13,232 nucleotides of DNA from Deltaproteobacteria bacterium (lineage in GTDB: Bacteria > Desulfobacterota > Desulfobacteria > Desulfobacterales > Desulfobacteraceae): assembly GCA_003647385.1 (NCBI GenBank), contig QMMT01000013.1, positions 1 to 13,232 on the forward strand, given 5' to 3'. The notes beneath the pieces were generated by a model. It had not been told where the DNA came from and did no database searches. It saw nothing but the letters and a program-made list of their open reading frames with translations. Shown piece by piece: positions 4,289-12,031 of the stretch (positions are counted from its first letter, which is position 1; the number at the start of each line of letters is the position of its first letter). The position numbers were made by a program, and so were the translations under genes.

Positions 4289-4318
4289 TTGACAAAGTGA
4301 ATCTATTTAATTTAACAT
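4289..4318 (+). promoter_or_regulatory. Promoter of the trp operon
   Basis: A perfect -35 box TTGACA (4289-4294) and a -10-like TAACAT (4313-4318) are 18 bp apart, predicting a start near 4325. This gives a short untranslated leader before trpL and a leader RNA of about 190 nt ending at the attenuator. No TrpR-type operator palindrome is evident around it. Confidence 0.6.
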
Positions 4319-4356
4319 CCTTGAAAATTTTAATGACGGATAAAAATACAATAGCA

Positions 4357-4431
4357 ATGAAAACAAACTTTACAAATAATGTTGAAACTTGGAGCGGCTG
4401 GTGGTGGCTTTGCGGCAGTAAGATGTGCTGA
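4357..4431 (+). CDS. trpL: trp operon leader peptide, four Trp codons
   Basis: A 24-codon ORF, ATG at 4357 and TGA at 4429-4431. Its centre reads T-W-S-G-W-W-W-L, with Trp at positions 12, 15, 16 and 17 (codons 4390-4392 and 4399-4407). Four Trp codons in 24, just upstream of a strong terminator and a Trp biosynthetic operon, identify a ribosome-sensing leader peptide. Neither this ATG nor an in-frame ATG at 4333 has a strong Shine-Dalgarno; 4357 is preferred because 4333 would be only about 8 nt from the predicted transcription start. When Trp-tRNA is scarce the ribosome should stall at the Trp codons and cover region 1 (4370-4381) of the attenuator. Confidence 0.88.
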   Translation: MKTNFTNNVETWSGWWWLCGSKMC

Positions 4432-4516
4432 CGGTTGTCATTATTTGTAATTAAATAAAATAAAAATTTTAAAGAACCCTAGGCATTAAAGAAAATGTCT
4501 AGGGTTCTTTTTTTTG
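4370..4516 (+). promoter_or_regulatory. trp attenuator: regions 1, 2, 3 and 4
   Basis: Region 1 TTACAAATAATG (4370-4381, inside trpL) pairs perfectly with region 2 CATTATTTGTAA (4439-4450, just after the trpL stop). Region 2 can instead pair with region 3 at 4485-4497: 4439-4451 against 4485-4497 gives 11 pairs of 13, one of them G-U, with mismatches at 4443/4493 and 4447/4489. Region 3 is the apical left arm and loop of the terminator (4471-4510), so 2:3 and the terminator exclude each other. Expected logic: a ribosome stalled on Trp codons masks region 1, so 2:3 forms and transcription continues. A ribosome at the stop codon masks region 2, so the terminator forms. With no translation, 1:2 forms and so does the terminator. 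The pairings are read directly; the logic follows the classical enterobacterial model. Confidence 0.8.
4471..4515 (+). terminator. Attenuator terminator of the trp leader
   Basis: AAAGAACCCTAGGCAT (4471-4486) pairs with ATGTCTAGGGTTCTTT (4495-4510), a 16-bp stem with one G-U pair and an 8-nt loop. A run of eight T residues follows (4508-4515), part of it in the stem. An A-rich stretch (4453-4466) precedes the stem. The aroF Shine-Dalgarno begins only 6 nt after the T run. Confidence 0.93.
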
Positions 4517-4533
4517 TTTAAGGAGGTAAAAAA

Positions 4534-5388
4534 ATGCTGGCCATAATGGAAAAAGAATCGTCACCCTGTATGCTTGTCAGCAGGGAATTTCAAAATGAAA
4601 ACAGTTGTATCAAAGTTGGTGATGCTGTTTTTGGTGATAACAGCATACCGGTAATTGCAGGGCCCTGTGCGGTGGAAAGCCGGGATCAGGTACTATATAT
4701 TGCCAAATCGGTTAAAAAGGCCGGTGCAAAATTGTTCAGAGGAGGAGCATTTAAACCCAGAACATCCCCCTATTCTTTCCAGGGACTCGGAGAAAAAGGT
4801 CTTCAATATCTATCCAGGGTACGCGAAGAAACCGGGCTACCCATCGTAACAGAGGTTTTAGACCTTTCAACTTTTGATCTTGTTGAATCCTATACCGATG
4901 TTATTCAAATCGGTGCCAGAAATATGCAGAATTTCAGTCTGTTAAAACGGGCGGGAAAATCAAAAAAACCGATATTGCTCAAAAGAGGCATGGCGGCAGA
5001 ACTTTCCGAATGGCTCATGGCTGCAGAATATATCATGGAAGAGGGCAACGCGGATATTATTCTCTGTGAACGGGGTATCAGGACCTTTGCCACCCACAGC
5101 AGAAACACCCTGGATCTTTCCATTATACCTGCGGTTAAAAAACAAAGCCATCTTCCCATCATCGTTGATCCAAGCCATGCCACCGGGGTAAGGGATCAGG
5201 TATTTTCAATGGCCTGTGCCGGTGCTGCAACTGGCGCAGACGGTATCTTAATTGAAGTCCATAACAAACCTAAACAGGCTCGATGCGATGGGGCTCAGTC
5301 TTTATATCCGGACCAGTTTGCCAAACTGATGGGAACGATAAACACCATTCATGACATCGTCAAAAAGAATAAAGGGAAAAGAAAATAA
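4534..5388 (+). CDS. aroF: 3-deoxy-7-phosphoheptulonate (DAHP) synthase, type I-beta
   Basis: Condenses phosphoenolpyruvate with erythrose 4-phosphate to DAHP, the first step of the shikimate pathway. The KDO8P-synthase-like (beta) subfamily is shown by GPCAVES (43-49, metal ligand Cys45), RGGAFKPRTSP (69-79), IGARNMQNF, PILLKRGM, CERGIRTF, DPSHATG (His ligand), IEVH (Glu ligand) and DGAQS (Asp ligand). At 284 residues only a short N-terminal extension precedes the barrel: neither the ferredoxin-like domain of Thermotoga-type enzymes nor a chorismate mutase/ACT domain is present. Feedback inhibition through such domains is therefore unlikely (inference), leaving attenuation as the visible control. 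AGGAGG (4521-4526) with a 7-nt spacer fixes the start at 4534. Its TAA overlaps the trpE ATG by one base (TAATG). Confidence 0.92.
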   Translation: MLAIMEKESSPCMLVSREFQNENSCIKVGDAVFGDNSIPVIAGPCAVESRDQVLYIAKSVKKAGAKLFRGGAFKPRTSPYSFQGLGEKGLQYLSRVREETGLPIVTEVLDLSTFDLVESYTDVIQIGARNMQNFSLLKRAGKSKKPILLKRGMAAELSEWLMAAEYIMEEGNADIILCERGIRTFATHSRNTLDLSIIPAVKKQSHLPIIVDPSHATGVRDQVFSMACAGAATGADGILIEVHNKPKQARCDGAQSLYPDQFAKLMGTINTIHDIVKKNKGKRK

Positions 5389-6887
5389 TGCTGTTCAATC
5401 AATTTCCAGATAAAAAACAATATCTAACCCTGTCTGACACCTGTAATGTTATCCCTGTTTGCATGGAAATACTGGCTGATATGGAGACGCCAGTGTCTTT
5501 ACTGCGAAAACTTTATAATAAAAAAGAGCCCTTGTTTTTGTTTGAAAGTGTTGAAGGACGCGAAAGATGGGGAAGATACAGTTTTTTGGGAACTTGTGCC
5601 AAAAAAGAAATACTGGTGTTTAAAGACCATATAAAGATTCTTGAAAAAAATGAGTCAAAAAAAATACTCCATGACAACAAACCCTTAGATGTACTGCGTA
5701 AGCTTCTGGCAGAATATAAAGCAGCTGATATTCCGGAACTGCCAAGATTCTGGGGGGGGATGATCGGTTACATGACCTATGAAATGGTCTCGTTTTTTGA
5801 AGATATCCCCAACACGCTGCCGGATTCAAAACCAAGGGCTCATTTTATGATACCCGGCGAAGTGATTATATTTGATAATGAGAAAAACACGGTGACCGCT
5901 ATTGTGATTTCTTTTTTAGATAAAACCAGAGACAAAGAAAAAAACTATGAAGACGCAACAGGAAAATTAAAGCAGCTTATCAAGAGGATAAGATGTGAAC
6001 AGAAGGTTGTACAAAAAAGAGAAGAAAAAAAGGTTTATAAACTCAGCCCCAGATATCCTGATAAGAGATATCACGATCATGTAAAAAAAGTAAAAGAGCA
6101 TATTTATCAAGGCGATATTATTCAGGCTGTTATTTCACAGCCCTTTGAATGTCCAGATTCGCCGGATCTTGTAGACCTTTACCGGGCACAAAGATATATC
6201 AATCCTTCGCCGTATCTCTATTTTATAAACCTGTCCTCCAGTGCCCTTGTGGGGTCTTCACCGGAAACCATGGTTCGTTTGGAAAACAACACTGCCACAT
6301 TACGGCCCATTGCCGGTACAAGGCCAAGGGGTAAAACCGAACAGGAAGACCGTGCCCTTGCCGATCATCTGCTTTCTGATGAAAAAGAACGTGCCGAACA
6401 TCTGATGCTGGTTGATCTTGGCCGAAACGATCTCGGCAGAATTGCTGCGACGGGAAGCGTACAGGTGACAGACCTTATGGGGGTGGAGCGTTATTCCCAT
6501 GTCATGCACCTGGTATCCAATATCAAATGCGACCTTAAACCGGACAAAGATGCATGGGACCTGTTAAAATCCTGTTTCCCGGCAGGGACACTTTCCGGTG
6601 CTCCAAAGGTTCGTGCCATGCAGATTATTCATGATCTGGAAAAAGAAGCTCGGGGTCCCTATGGCGGTGCAGTGGGGTATATTTCCTTTGACGGCAACAT
6701 GGATCTTGCCATCACCATAAGAACCGCCTGCATCGAAGAGGGGAAATTAAGAGTCCAGGCGGGTGCCGGGATTGTTGCCGATTCTGACCCTGAAACCGAA
6801 TGCATTGAAACACACAATAAAGCAAAAGCGTTGGAAAAGGCATTAACCCTTGTTTCCGACCTTCAATATTCAGGAGAAAACCAATGA
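5388..6887 (+). CDS. trpE: Anthranilate synthase component I
   Basis: Converts chorismate plus ammonia, supplied by TrpG, to anthranilate and pyruvate; the first committed step of Trp synthesis. The 499-residue length is normal. The N-terminal part has FLFESVEG (50-57), the counterpart of the LLES Trp-binding motif, and GRERWGRYSFLG (57-68), which suggests feedback inhibition by Trp. The C-terminal chorismate-binding domain shows DIIQAVISQ, GSSPETMVRLE, RPIAGTRPRG (306-315), HLMLVDLGRNDLGR, FPAGTLSGAPKVRAM and GAGIVADSDPETE (about 459-471). PIAGT, rather than the PIKGT of aminodeoxychorismate synthase, supports TrpE over PabB. It is coupled by 1-base and 4-base overlaps to aroF and trpG. Confidence 0.96.
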   Translation: MLFNQFPDKKQYLTLSDTCNVIPVCMEILADMETPVSLLRKLYNKKEPLFLFESVEGRERWGRYSFLGTCAKKEILVFKDHIKILEKNESKKILHDNKPLDVLRKLLAEYKAADIPELPRFWGGMIGYMTYEMVSFFEDIPNTLPDSKPRAHFMIPGEVIIFDNEKNTVTAIVISFLDKTRDKEKNYEDATGKLKQLIKRIRCEQKVVQKREEKKVYKLSPRYPDKRYHDHVKKVKEHIYQGDIIQAVISQPFECPDSPDLVDLYRAQRYINPSPYLYFINLSSSALVGSSPETMVRLENNTATLRPIAGTRPRGKTEQEDRALADHLLSDEKERAEHLMLVDLGRNDLGRIAATGSVQVTDLMGVERYSHVMHLVSNIKCDLKPDKDAWDLLKSCFPAGTLSGAPKVRAMQIIHDLEKEARGPYGGAVGYISFDGNMDLAITIRTACIEEGKLRVQAGAGIVADSDPETECIETHNKAKALEKALTLVSDLQYSGENQ

Positions 6888-7486
6888 TCCTCATGATAGA
6901 CAACTATGATTCATTTACGTATAATCTTGTACAATACATCAGACAAATCGGAGAAGACGTCATAGTATTTAGAAATGATGCCCTCACACTAAAAGAGATA
7001 TCAGATCTAAAACCTGTGGCAATCGTTCTTTCTCCTGGCCCGGGTCTTCCCGAGTCTGCCGGTATTTGTCTTGATGTAGTGAAACACTTTTCAGGGATAA
7101 TTCCCATTCTCGGGGTTTGTTTAGGTCATCAGACCATAGCCCTCTCCTTTGGAAGCAACATTATCCACGCAAAAAAACTGGTACATGGAAAAACATCACA
7201 AATAAGCTGTGATGGGAAAAATATATTTCAGGGATTTAAAAAACCATTCCAGGCCATGCGGTATCATTCCATGGCAGTAGAAAAGACAAGCCTGGCGGAC
7301 TGCCTTGACATTACAGCAATGTCTGATGATGGAGAAATTATGGGAATCAGACATGTGTCCCATGCTACTGAAGGGATTCAATTTCACCCCGAATCCATCA
7401 TGACTCCATCAGGGAAAAGATTGTTAAGAAATTTTATAAATACGATCAACAACAAAAAATTAAATGAGGAAAAAAATGTTCAATAA
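6884..7486 (+). CDS. trpG: Anthranilate synthase component II (glutamine amidotransferase)
   Basis: Class I glutamine amidotransferase that releases ammonia from glutamine and passes it to TrpE. Motifs: DNYDSFTYNL (6-15), LSPGPGLP (49-56), the nucleophile elbow GVCLGHQ (77-83, Cys79), RYHSM (126-130) and QFHPES (166-171, His168 and Glu170). The 200-residue length is typical for a stand-alone TrpG, not fused to TrpD as in enterobacteria. ATGA overlaps the trpE stop by 4 bases, implying translational coupling and equal stoichiometry. No second PabA-like gene is in the window, so the protein might also serve folate synthesis, as in some bacteria (inference). Confidence 0.95.
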   Translation: MILMIDNYDSFTYNLVQYIRQIGEDVIVFRNDALTLKEISDLKPVAIVLSPGPGLPESAGICLDVVKHFSGIIPILGVCLGHQTIALSFGSNIIHAKKLVHGKTSQISCDGKNIFQGFKKPFQAMRYHSMAVEKTSLADCLDITAMSDDGEIMGIRHVSHATEGIQFHPESIMTPSGKRLLRNFINTINNKKLNEEKNVQ

Positions 7487-8495
7487 AAACCTAAATCAAA
7501 TAATTTCAGGAAAAGATCTGACAAACACACAAATGGGTGAAATGATTTCTCACATTTTTTCCGGCAGGCTTACTGATGTTCAGGTGGCTGGATTTATAGC
7601 TGCCCTTGCCGCAAAGGGAGAAACCATTGAAGAACTTACAGGAGCCGCCCAAATTATGAGGCAAAACGCGGTTAAGATTCAGGTGACAGGACATGATACA
7701 GTGATTGATACCTGTGGAACCGGTGGTGATGCGGCTGACACCTTTAATATTTCCACAACCACTGCCTTTGTTGCAGCAGGCTGCAATGTCATTGTAGCCA
7801 AGCATGGGAATCGCTCTGTTTCCAGTAAATGCGGCAGTGCCGACCTTGTTGAAGCCTTAGGCGTCAACCTGGATGTTGATCCGGAAATTGTTGAAGAGGC
7901 CATTGCCCAAATAGGCATTGGATTTGTCTTTGCACCCAGACACCATGGTGCAATGAAATTTGCAGCACCGGCAAGAAAAGAACTGGGTATAAAAAGTATT
8001 TTTAATATGCTGGGCCCTCTTTCAAACCCGGCCGGGGCAAATTGCCAGCTCCTTGGCGTTTACGCACCTGAGCTGACTGAAATGTTTGCCCGCACCTTAA
8101 ATAAACTTGGGACAAAAAGAGCCTTTGTCGTTCATGGTCATGATGGGTTGGACGAAATTTCAGTCTGCTCACCCACACGGGTATCAGAACTGAACCAGGG
8201 GCAGATAAAAACCTATGACATTCACCCTGAAGATTTTTTTGGAACTTTGTCCGATCCCCAAGATATAAAAGGAGGAGACTTAAAAACAAATCTGCAGATC
8301 ACAAAAGATGTGTTAAACGGCAAAAAAGGCCCTAAAAGAAATATAGTCTTGATCAATACTTCAGCAGCACTAGTTGCTGCCGGAAAATCAGACAGCTTAA
8401 AAGAGGGCATCTTAATGGCAGAAGAATCCATTGATTCAAGGAAGGCCATAACAAAGCTCAATGAGCTCATCGCCTTTACACAGGATAATGCATAG
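7476..8495 (+). CDS. trpD: Anthranilate phosphoribosyltransferase
   Basis: Transfers phosphoribose from PRPP to anthranilate. The chosen start gives 339 residues, the usual size. Motifs: DTCGTGGD (78-85, PRPP binding), KHGNRSVSSKCGSAD (109-123), the anthranilate-site segment FAPRHHGAMK (152-161), MLGPLSNP (178-185) and GHDGLDE (221-227, magnesium ligands Asp225 and Glu226). Two in-frame ATGs exist, at 7464 and 7476. GAGGA (7466-7470) lies 5 nt before 7476 and would fall inside a gene starting at 7464, so 7476 is preferred. It overlaps the end of trpG by 11 bases. Confidence 0.95.
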   Translation: MFNKNLNQIISGKDLTNTQMGEMISHIFSGRLTDVQVAGFIAALAAKGETIEELTGAAQIMRQNAVKIQVTGHDTVIDTCGTGGDAADTFNISTTTAFVAAGCNVIVAKHGNRSVSSKCGSADLVEALGVNLDVDPEIVEEAIAQIGIGFVFAPRHHGAMKFAAPARKELGIKSIFNMLGPLSNPAGANCQLLGVYAPELTEMFARTLNKLGTKRAFVVHGHDGLDEISVCSPTRVSELNQGQIKTYDIHPEDFFGTLSDPQDIKGGDLKTNLQITKDVLNGKKGPKRNIVLINTSAALVAAGKSDSLKEGILMAEESIDSRKAITKLNELIAFTQDNA

Positions 8496-8507: not shown

Positions 8508-9290
8508 ATGAAAAAAGATTTTTTAAAAATAATTATTGAGCACAAAAAAAAAGAAGTTGAGGCCTTAAAGAAAAAAAGACCTGAGACGCTTCTTCGTCTA
8601 GAATCTCAAGCTGAAAGAGACATAAGACCTTTTTATGAAAATTTAAAAAAACCAGACAAAATAAATATTATTGCTGAAATAAAAAGAGCCTCCCCATCCA
8701 AAGGAGATATTTGTTTAAACCTTGATCCTGCGAAAATGGCAAAGGATTATGAAAAAGGCGGGGCCTGCGCCATTTCCGTTCTAACAGATGAAAAATTTTT
8801 TAAAGGCAGCCTGGATGATTTTATCTTTGCAAGAAAAGCAACAAGCCTTCCCATGTTGAGAAAAGATTTTATCATATCTTCCTATCAAGTGTATGAATCC
8901 TTTATTTCAGGTGCAGATGCTGTTCTTTTAATTGCAAAAATTTTATCGAAAGAGCAATTAAAAGACCTGCTCGCTTTAACACATGAATTGAAAATGAGTG
9001 CGCTTGTGGAAATTAACTCTGAAAAAGACTTTAAAAAAGCCGCTGATGCCGGTGCGCGAATAATTGGCATTAATAATCGAGATTTAAACTCCTTTAATAC
9101 GGATATTACCACTGCCACAAGGCTGATTTCCCTTTTTAACAAGGACCAAATCGCTGTTGCAGCAAGTGGGATATCCGGCAAAAAAGATATTATTAAAACG
9201 TGTAAAGCCGGGATCTTAAATTTTTTGATTGGTGAAAGTCTTGTAAAAGCAGACAATCCTGTAACCTTTTTAAAAAGCCTGATTGAATAA
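8508..9290 (+). CDS. trpC: Indole-3-glycerol-phosphate synthase
   Basis: Closes the indole ring: CdRP to indole-3-glycerol phosphate, with loss of CO2 and water. A 260-residue (beta/alpha)8 barrel with the catalytic set in order: Glu57 and Lys59 in AEIKRASPSKG (56-66), Lys119 in LRKDF (117-121), Glu168 in ALVEIN (165-170), Asn189 in GINNRDL (187-193), Ser220 in AASGI, and the phosphate loop IGES (241-244). Spacing between these residues matches that of the archaeal enzyme. It is not fused to TrpF, unlike the enterobacterial TrpC. AGGGA (8494-8498) overlaps the trpD stop and serves as Shine-Dalgarno; the gap after trpD is 12 bp. Confidence 0.96.
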   Translation: MKKDFLKIIIEHKKKEVEALKKKRPETLLRLESQAERDIRPFYENLKKPDKINIIAEIKRASPSKGDICLNLDPAKMAKDYEKGGACAISVLTDEKFFKGSLDDFIFARKATSLPMLRKDFIISSYQVYESFISGADAVLLIAKILSKEQLKDLLALTHELKMSALVEINSEKDFKKAADAGARIIGINNRDLNSFNTDITTATRLISLFNKDQIAVAASGISGKKDIIKTCKAGILNFLIGESLVKADNPVTFLKSLIE

Positions 9291-9329: not shown

Positions 9330-10043
9330 ATGATCACACAAATCCCAGTTAAAATTCAGGTTAAAATCTGTGGGCTGACAAAAATTGATGAGGCCCAAAG
9401 AATTGCTGCTTTAGGCGTCAATGCCATTGGCTTTGTTTTTTATCCAAAAAGCAGGCGGCATATAAGTGTAAAAAAGGCAAAAGAGATTCAAAGAAGTTTA
9501 CCCTCCAAGGTTTCCTGCGTCGGTGTTTTTGTAGATGAATCTTTTTCATCCATTATGCAGAAAGTAAATGACTGCCATCTTGATGCTGTACAGCTCCACG
9601 GAAATGAGACGAGAGAGATGGTATCAAAATTGAAAAAAGAAAATCTCAATGTCATCAAAGCCCTTTATATGGAAGATGAACCCAATATAAAAAATGCAAA
9701 AAAGTATGAAGCATCTTCATATCTTGTGGAATGCTGCCCCGGCAAACTGCCCGGCGGCAACGCCCGGTCATGGAATTGGAATAAAACAAGATCGTATAAG
9801 ACGAATGCCCCGCTTATTTTAGCAGGAGGTTTAACACCGGATAATATAGAAGAGGCTGTATTATCCTGTATGCCTGATGCAGTGGATATCAGTTCAGGCG
9901 TAGAAATTTCTCCCGGGCATAAAGACATTTTAAAGGTTAAACATCTTTTAAAAAATCTGAAATCCGCCTTTAAAAAAATAAACCCGGATTCAAAAAGAAA
10001 AATAAGGACAGTTTTTTATGACAAATCAAAGAAAAAATCTTAA
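9330..10043 (+). CDS. trpF: Phosphoribosylanthranilate isomerase
   Basis: Catalyses the Amadori rearrangement of phosphoribosylanthranilate to CdRP. Barrel motifs: VKICGLT (11-17, general base Cys14), [12 protein letters not shown] (32-43), VGVFVD (64-69), DAVQLHG (85-91), a phosphate-side loop [10 protein letters not shown] (141-150), [10 protein letters not shown] (164-173) and [10 protein letters not shown] (183-192, general acid Asp186). At 237 residues it is longer than the usual 200-215, because of a Lys-rich C-terminal tail from about residue 211 that runs into trpB. The loop GGNARSWNW differs from the common GGTGxxFDW form. AAGGG (9315-9319) precedes the ATG; the gap after trpC is 39 bp, the largest in the operon. 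It overlaps trpB by 26 bases. Confidence 0.94.
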
Positions 10044-11214
10044 TGAAAATGGTCATTTCGGCCTCTTTGGCGGCAGGTATGTGGGTGAAACCCTTATGCC
10101 GGCAATTCTGGAATTAGAAGAAGCGTTTTATAAATATTCAAAAGATGATGATTTTATCAATGAATTATCCGCCCTTCTTGAAACGTATGTGGGACGGCCC
10201 ACGCCGCTCTATTTTGCCAAAAGGCTTTCACACCATTTAAAGGGTGGGAAAATTTATTTAAAACGTGAAGATCTGGCCCATACCGGTGCGCATAAAATCA
10301 ATAACACACTGGGCCAGGCACTCCTTGCCAGATATATGGGTAAAAACAAACTCATAGCCGAAACAGGCGCAGGTCAGCATGGCGTGGCCACAGCCACCAC
10401 AGCCGCCCTGTTTGGAATGCAATGCCATGTCTTTATGGGAACACAGGATATTAAGCGCCAGGCGCCCAATGTAAAAAGAATGGAACTTTTAGGTGCTAAA
10501 ATTATCCCGGTGGATTCAGGCACCGGCACGCTGAAAGATGCCATGAACGAGGCTATGCGGTATTGGGTCGGTGCTGCAAAAGACACCTTCTATGTGATCG
10601 GATCTGTTGCAGGGCCCCATCCTTACCCTGAGATGGTCAGAGAATTTCAAAAAATCATAGGAATTGAAACAAAAAAACAGATTATTAAATTGACCGGTAA
10701 ACTTCCCGACACACTCATCGCCTGTGTGGGGGGAGGCAGCAATGCAATGGGATTGTTCCACCCCTTTATATCTGATAAAAATGTTGAAATAATCGGCGTG
10801 GAAGCCGCCGGCAAAGGAATTGATACAAATAAACATGCTGCAACCTTAACCAAAGGATCGGTGGGAGTGCTTCATGGATCAAAATCCTATGTGCTCCAGG
10901 ATGAATTCGGTCAGATCAGCGAGGCACACTCCATATCAGCAGGCCTTGACTATCCCGGCGTTGGACCGGAACATGCACTGCTCAAAGAGACAAAAAGAGT
11001 CTCCTATCTTTCCATCACCGATGATGAGGCATTGAAGGCCCTGCATATATTATGCAGATATGAAGGCATCATCCCCGCCCTTGAAAGTTCCCATGCCCTT
11101 GCCCAGGCCATGAAAACAGCCCCAAAAAGGTCCCCCAAAGACATCATCATTGTAAACCTGTCAGGCAGAGGGGATAAGGATTTGGAAACCGTTATCAATT
11201 TTGACTCGAAATAA
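10018..11214 (+). CDS. trpB: Tryptophan synthase beta chain
   Basis: PLP enzyme that joins indole, channelled from TrpA, with serine to give tryptophan. The 398-residue length and motifs are of the TrpB1 class: [15 protein letters not shown] (14-28), [15 protein letters not shown] (82-96, Schiff-base Lys93), ETGAGQHG (115-122, catalytic Glu115), the PLP phosphate loop GGGSNAMG (238-245), [13 protein letters not shown] (307-319) and LSGRGDKD (381-388). AAGGA (10004-10008) with a 9-nt spacer supports the ATG at 10018, which lies within the last codons of trpF. trpA begins 16 bp after the stop. Confidence 0.97.
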
Positions 11215-11230
11215 AATTAAGGAATAGATC

Positions 11231-12031
11231 ATGAATAGAATAAAAAGAAAATTTGATGAATTAAAAGGGAAAAAAGAAAAAGCTCTGGTCGGCTTTCTTA
11301 CCGCCGGCGACCCTGACCCATCAAGATCCTTAGATATTACCACACAGATGTGTGAAGCCGGACTCGATGTGCTGGAACTGGGGGTTCCATTTTCCGACCC
11401 CACTGCAGACGGCCCTGTTATTCAAAGGTCTTCGGCAAGATCTATTGCAAAGGGAACCCATATTTCAACCATACTTAAAATGATAAAAAAAATTAGAAAA
11501 AAAACTGATATTCCCATCATTTTATTTACCTATTATAATCCGGTTCTGGCCTTTGGTGTTGAAAAATTATACATAGAAGCCAAAAAGGCAGGCGCTGATG
11601 GAACACTTGTGGTGGATCTGCCGCCGGAAGAATCAGATGAAATGACAAAATTCTGGGATGGTGACAATGATTTTTCTTTCATCCGCTTATTCGCCCCCAC
11701 AACTCCGATAGAACGGATGGAAAAAATATCACGGGCAGCGTCCGGATTCATCTATCTTGTTTCCAAAACAGGCGTTACAGGAAGTGAAGGTATTGAGTCT
11801 TCAAAAATCTCAAAACAGATGGAAACCATACGGAAAGTTTCTGATCTTCCTGTATGCGTAGGATTTGGAATTTCCACACCCAGGGATGTATCGCAAATCG
11901 CATCCTTTGCAGACGGTGTTGTCATTGGAAGTGCCTTTGAAAGACTCATAGAAAGCAATATAAACAACCCGGAACTGCCATCCATCATGGCTGAAAAAGT
12001 GAGAGAATATAAAAAAGCCACTATTGTTTGA
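11231..12031 (+). CDS. trpA: Tryptophan synthase alpha chain
   Basis: Cleaves indole-3-glycerol phosphate to indole and glyceraldehyde 3-phosphate within the alpha2-beta2 complex. The 266-residue barrel keeps the catalytic pair at the same numbers as E. coli: Glu49 (DVLELGVPFSDP, 46-57) and Asp60 (TADGP). Also present are YYNPV (101-105, loop 2), the mobile loop 6 segment SKTGVTGSEG (178-187) and the phosphate-binding GFGIS and GSAFE segments. AAGGA (11219-11223) lies 7 nt before the ATG. It is the last gene of the operon; a strong hairpin starts 8 bp after the stop. Confidence 0.97.
   Translation: MNRIKRKFDELKGKKEKALVGFLTAGDPDPSRSLDITTQMCEAGLDVLELGVPFSDPTADGPVIQRSSARSIAKGTHISTILKMIKKIRKKTDIPIILFTYYNPVLAFGVEKLYIEAKKAGADGTLVVDLPPEESDEMTKFWDGDNDFSFIRLFAPTTPIERMEKISRAASGFIYLVSKTGVTGSEGIESSKISKQMETIRKVSDLPVCVGFGISTPRDVSQIASFADGVVIGSAFERLIESNINNPELPSIMAEKVREYKKATIV

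Follow-up and report, generated by a model that had tools for sequence, protein, structure and literature searches.

A probable ribosome-mediated trp attenuator with a conventional antiterminator ahead of a DAHP synthase gene and trpEGDCFBA in a deltaproteobacterial genome

The window analysed here, a stretch of 13,232 nucleotides that makes up contig C13 (QMMT01000013.1) of a Deltaproteobacteria bacterium assembly (G000; 81% complete), carries a trp attenuator-like leader and a terminator upstream of a DAHP synthase gene and trpEGDCFBA, all on the + strand. Based on folding models, we propose that it is probably a classical ribosome-mediated trp attenuator with a conventional antiterminator. 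A ribosome-mediated trp attenuator before a complete trp gene set had been put forward in a first-pass annotation, and it is supported by the conservation of the Trp codons and the terminator in G192, the genome with the closest TrpE found (82% identical), and by similar leaders across the order. That annotation placed the 2:3 helix between 4439-4451 and 4485-4497; a conventional antiterminator at 4475-4486 is a better fit to the anatomy of the leader. The pairings, the extent to which one relative keeps them and a codon-dependent exposure of region 2 were computed, and RNA levels would be expected to respond to Trp. The elements are:

4289-4318, + strand: sigma-70-like promoter, TTGACA - 18 nucleotides (nt) - TAACAT (pattern scan, 10 of 12 matches)
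4357-4431, + strand: leader peptide of 24 codons, MKTNFTNNVETWSGWWWLCGSKMC (from sequence; ATG at 4357-4359, stop codon TGA at 4429-4431)
4370-4450, + strand: putative outer clamp helix of 12 base pairs (bp), 4370-4381/4439-4450, the 1:2 helix of the first-pass annotation (minimum free energy (MFE) fold)
4406-4439, + strand: inner 1:2 hairpin, core 4413-4417/4426-4430 with 4410-4412/4432-4434 and 4406-4408/4437-4439 (MFE folds)
4425-4436, + strand: region 2, forming the 5' strand of the antiterminator and overlapping the stop codon of the leader (partition function)
4475-4486, + strand: region 3, 3' strand of the antiterminator, within the 5' arm of the terminator (partition function and duplex search)
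4471-4515, + strand: intrinsic terminator of 17 bp with a 6-nt loop and a U tract at 4508-4515 (pattern scan, fold and comparison with G192)

The sequence confirms the leader peptide with Trp12 (4390-4392) and Trp15-17 (4399-4407), and these Trp codons are conserved in the G192 leader peptide, MNKEFTNNNLTTWSGWWWLCGSKMC. It is a short predicted open reading frame with clustered Trp codons before the trp genes, and is conserved in G192. The TTGACA of the promoter is also retained in that genome; the pattern scan returned four sites in 1001 bases, with 2.6 expected.

The fold of 4325-4533 has an energy of -53.5 kcal/mol (z -5.43), and none of 200 shuffled sequences was equally stable. An intrinsic terminator lies between the leader and the first structural gene, its stem being formed by 4471-4487/4494-4510 (-24.7 kcal/mol). 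It had been described as a 16-bp terminator with eight U. The terminator and the eight U are present, but the stem is 17 bp long and the U tract lies partly inside it, overlapping the last three A-U pairs and leaving five U beyond the full stem. Between the window and G192, 13 of the 17 pairs are unchanged, one has a one-sided change, two are changed on both sides and one is broken. In both two-sided changes (4474-4507 and 4482-4499) G-C becomes A-U and pairing is preserved.

The antiterminator consists of 4425-4429/4482-4486 and 4433-4436/4475-4478 and occupies the middle of the terminator 5' arm. When the fold starts at 4415, 4418 or 4421 and ends at 4486-4497, the antiterminator is the MFE structure (-8.2 to -8.5 kcal/mol) and its nine pairs have a probability of about 0.62-0.99 with these starts, compared with about 0.22-0.67 for a start at 4412, where CGGCA (4413-4417) competes for UGCUG (4426-4430). 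The antiterminator becomes dominant once the RNA to about 4415 is concealed, which a ribosome at Trp16-17 would do. The core of the inner hairpin is found in the unmasked MFE fold, and the core with its extensions when 4372-4405 is masked. In G192, all nine antiterminator pairs and all 11 pairs of the inner hairpin are kept, one of each through a one-sided change. An unguided duplex search returned the antiterminator as the best duplex of G192 (-10.2), while the best duplex of the window (-10.6) contains it along with one more short helix and a single isolated pair.

The effect of a ribosome was modelled by masking its footprint, 18 nt upstream and 14 nt downstream of the first A-site base. 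In a downstream-only model, in which only RNA 3' of the ribosome may fold, the probability that the terminator 5' arm of the window is paired upstream was 0.23 with the ribosome at Trp12, 0.53, 0.59 and 0.59 at Trp15, 16 and 17, 0.04 at the stop codon and 0.34 with no ribosome. The corresponding values in G192 were 0.20, then 0.55-0.59, and 0.16 at the stop codon. Exposure of region 2 by a stall, and its concealment by a ribosome at the stop codon, is seen in this downstream-only model and not if pairing across the ribosome is allowed.

In the proposed mechanism, the leader ribosome would, when tRNA-Trp is charged, reach the UGA at 4429-4431 and cover region 2 (4425-4436), and the terminator (4471-4510) would form. 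When Trp is short, the ribosome would stall in Trp15-17, with Trp16-17 the most effective positions in the model, and would cover the 5' strand of the inner hairpin (4406-4417). Region 2, freed by the stall, would take 4475-4486, and RNA polymerase would continue past the leader to the DAHP synthase gene and trpEGDCFBA. In the absence of a ribosome, region 2 would be held by the inner hairpin together with the 12-bp outer clamp, and the terminator would form.

Several results weigh against this interpretation. The antiterminator of the window is no stronger than those of shuffled linkers, of which 42 of 100 were as strong in the duplex search and 115 of 500 matched its probability in the partition function, and its duplex energy ranks 116 of 122 among the leaders surveyed below. 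With -24.7 kcal/mol for the terminator and -8.5 kcal/mol for the antiterminator, antitermination would have to be kinetic. If pairing across the masked ribosome is allowed, the outer clamp wins, leaving the antiterminator a probability of at most 0.12, and a ribosome at Trp15 does not prevent the inner hairpin from forming (0.74). The conservation is also that of a single relative, G192 being the only clear further member of the window leader type among 26 genus and 389 order genomes; a 31-base match of 91% was found in G133, and G367 has a partial TrpE (77%) on a contig that ends before the leader. The antiterminator of G192 was matched or beaten by 25 of 100 shuffles in the duplex search and by 1 of 60 in the partition function, and its probability with pairing across the ribosome was 0.49-0.61 at Trp17, Trp18 and the next codon. 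The strong terminator, the low energy rank and the shuffle results of the window could also be explained by a weakened or decaying attenuator, in which the leader and the terminator remain, the antiterminator is too weak to have an effect and transcription of the operon is mostly by read-through at a fixed, low rate. We consider such decay rather unlikely, as neither genome has lost the Trp codons, the inner hairpin or the antiterminator pairing, and two pairs of the terminator have changed on both sides with pairing kept.

The 2:3 helix of the first-pass annotation describes a different switch. Region 2 would be 4439-4451 and would pair with 4485-4497, at the apex and in the loop of the terminator, blocking it by topology and leaving the lower stem free. 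The letters do pair at 11 of 13 positions, one of them G-U, and the idea is not absurd, since loop-entering antiterminators are frequent among relatives (89 of 110). As an intramolecular helix, however, it has an energy of +1.5 kcal/mol, and its probability stayed at 0.00 wherever the ribosome was placed (25 positions, covering 24 codons plus the stop codon), with transcript ends at 4490 and 4497. In G192 it is poorer still, with three of 13 positions unpaired instead of two; the additional pair was lost by a deletion in the loop and none was gained. This antiterminator was discarded on these grounds. The coherent switch built on it is not borne out by the energies or the masking model, nor is a special region 3 that blocks by topology, the helix being unstable, never populated and less complete in G192; such blocking is highly improbable.

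The perfect 12-bp complementarity between 4370-4381 and 4439-4450 held up, and the helix is found in the MFE fold of 4325-4533 (-8.3 kcal/mol for the helix). A Watson-Crick match of at least 12 arose in 14 of 3000 shuffled segment pairs, and 198 of 5000 reached an equally good duplex energy, so that the complementarity is only moderately unlikely by chance; between the window and G192, 11 of the 12 pairs are unchanged, one is broken and none is compensatory. The strand 4370-4381 had been taken as a standard region 1 for Trp15-17, but it lies upstream of a ribosome stalled there. In the masking model, stalls at any of codons 2 to 14 open the outer helix, whereas stalls at Trp15-17 do not (probability 0.00 at Trp12, compared with 0.52-0.96 at Trp15-17), and this strand is therefore not the one through which the Trp15-17 cluster would be gated by Trp. 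Because the helix crosses the antiterminator pairs, the two are mutually exclusive in a nested fold. Its role is probably that of an outer clamp, favouring the terminator as long as no ribosome is stalled, and it may lower basal read-through. The clamp would not be expected to close around a stalled 70S ribosome, where such a helix is assumed to be disfavoured. As a general feature of the order the clamp was rejected, since 10 of 119 leaders were matched by no more than 10 of 200 shuffles, with about six expected; the window (4/200) and G192 (7/200) are both among the ten.

As Trp12 is the first Trp codon met, and a ribosome stalled there covers 4370-4381 and removes the outer helix in the masking model while stalls at Trp15-17 do not, opening of the clamp could itself be the regulated step. 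With the ribosome at Trp12, however, the inner hairpin 4413-4417/4426-4430 persists (0.67), the antiterminator has a probability of 0.00 and the terminator arm is paired upstream at just 0.23, which makes sensing through Trp12 improbable. A combination of the two, also unlikely, would be a two-tier lock in which the clamp bars the antiterminator as well, Trp12 opening the clamp and Trp16-17 the inner hairpin. No single stall position opens both in the model, so read-through might need a stall at Trp15-17 together with a queued second ribosome over 4370-4381. If true, such a lock would read translation initiation in addition to Trp supply.

The classical attenuator was also considered against leaders of the wider order. 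At E 1e-80, TrpE searches matched 23 of the 26 genus genomes and 72 of the 86 genomes of the family; at E 1e-150, they matched 272 of the 389 order genomes. The survey covers 143 upstream regions from part of the TrpE-bearing genomes (L114-L150, L159-L183 and L184-L263, or 37, 25 and 80 regions, plus the window). An automatic rule, clustered Trp codons followed by a terminator, was passed by 124 of the 143, the other 19 failing in some cases through a contig end. By eye, L187, L203, L204, L206, L207 and L208 are likely false positives and L167 is doubtful; in some regions, such as L121, L127 and L181, the rule took a second terminator in place of the first. WW is present in 95 of the 124 leaders and WWW in 67.

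The antiterminator was matched by at most five of 100 shuffles in 82 of 122 leaders, with about six expected. The contrast was weaker in the partition-function test, where 40 of 122 leaders were matched by at most three of 60 shuffles, again with about six expected. Two of the 124 leaders were left out of these tests (linker too short) and five out of the clamp test. The downstream-only medians for the 124 leaders were 0.68 at the best Trp position, 0.03 at the stop codon and 0.56 with no ribosome, and given the last of these the model captures the 1:2 competition poorly in many relatives. If bases below the terminator are allowed, an MFE antiterminator is found in 110 of the 124; at least two loop bases are paired in 89 of these and at least two bases below the terminator in 67, and region 2 spans the leader stop codon in 47. 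Loop entry is common among the relatives, but is not the best solution for the window itself.

Tandem terminators, at least two in a row, follow the leader in 72 of the 124 regions (for example L115, L116, L117, L118 and others of L159-L263). The second of them is often, by eye, GGCCGTGG...CCACGGCC.

The window resembles E. coli trpL in having a leader with clustered Trp codons, predicted 1:2, 2:3 and 3:4 helices that exclude one another, an intrinsic terminator before the first structural gene and a stop codon near region 2. As a control, the same code applied to the E. coli K-12 leader yielded an antiterminator when the ribosome was placed at Trp10, its region 2 lying just past the trpL stop codon. 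In E. coli the antiterminator takes six basal bases, below the terminator, and three lower, two upper and no loop bases of the terminator, compared with one, five, five and none in the window. The window further differs in its extra outer 12-bp clamp, its four Trp codons as opposed to two and its DAHP synthase gene in first place. A his operon attenuator with an extra hairpin is described in PMC1183508, and the outer clamp could serve the part of that hairpin; it pairs early leader codons with post-stop RNA, however, and the regulatory codons differ. For Actinobacteria, PMC1262725 predicts classical trp attenuators in which UGG codons are doubled or tripled and a terminator alternates with an antiterminator. 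The window shares clustered UGG codons and a predicted alternation of this kind with them, whereas the actinobacterial examples are described as GC-rich with a conserved gGCC-rGCy-GGCC triple and the window has no GGCC in 4357-4520.

Rfam returned nothing above the gathering score for the window, the sole leader match being His_leader at 27.7 bits (gathering score 49; E 0.44), and membership of Trp_leader or another Rfam leader family was discarded. In the upstream regions of 20 relatives, no leader family was matched at E 0.01, and one small RNA family match fell below the cut-off. No paper on attenuation in desulfo- or deltaproteobacteria was found in the open literature. The work of Vitreschak et al. 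(2004) reportedly deals with proteobacterial attenuators and may cover part of the present findings.

The structural genes downstream of the leader are:

4534-5388, + strand: DAHP synthase gene, first structural gene (NCBIfam NF006421, match from profile position 66)
5388-6887, + strand: trpE (TIGR00564, score above cut-off)
6884-7486, + strand: trpG (TIGR00566, score above cut-off)
7464-8495, + strand: trpD (TIGR01245, score above cut-off)
8508-9290, + strand: trpC (NF001377, score above cut-off)
9330-10043, + strand: trpF (NF002298, score above cut-off)
10018-11214, + strand: trpB (TIGR00263, score above cut-off)
11231-12031, + strand: trpA (TIGR00262, score above cut-off)

In G192 the leader directly precedes trpE with no DAHP synthase gene between them, and the two DAHP synthase matches in that genome, 72% and 60% identical to the window copy, are both on other contigs. 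In the 123 other regions with a called leader, which are those that the spacing argument covers, the leader falls inside an examined stretch of no more than 671 bases ahead of trpE, where the 855-base DAHP synthase gene cannot fit. The gene was therefore either inserted in the window lineage or lost in the G192 lineage. Linkage of DAHP synthase and trpE recurs with differing layouts in several genomes; the two genes adjoin in opposite directions in G021:C27, G083:C289 and G248:C654.

The N-terminal ferredoxin-like domain PF18152 was not matched in the window DAHP synthase (4534-5388), and is present in the relative L087. Compared with six full-length relatives, the window protein has about 56 residues fewer ahead of the GPCAVE motif. 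One G192 copy, L269, is likewise short, and other copies in G000 and G298 are open frames of only 291 and 281 amino acids, so the shortness is not unique to the trp-linked copy.

A palindrome, GTTTCT-N4-8-AGAAAC, was observed upstream of the trp leaders of relatives, in 56 of the 143 regions and in 52 of the 62 family regions. In 54 of these 56 its start lies 24-26 nt ahead of a TTGACA (e.g. L279 in G245 and L278 in G257), and it was not found in the window or in the trp leader region of G192. The palindrome is rare, with genome counts of three in G245, three in G257, one in G192 and none in G000, and the backwards control gave one in G257 and none in the others. Apart from trpE, it is followed by a trpB gene at L273 and by TrpB-like genes at L276 and L277; no trp gene was recognised beside the third site of G245 (L275) or the G192 site (L274). 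It may serve as the operator of an undescribed trp regulator.

For the window itself, a tempting misreading of region 3 is corrected, and the switch looks ordinary. The survey indicates that trp attenuation is common across the order, where the Rfam models did not recognise it in 21 sources (the window and 20 relatives), and the antiterminators of relatives that enter the loop offer a testable departure from the E. coli layout. A DAHP synthase gene of this genome would come under the trp attenuator together with trpEGDCFBA.
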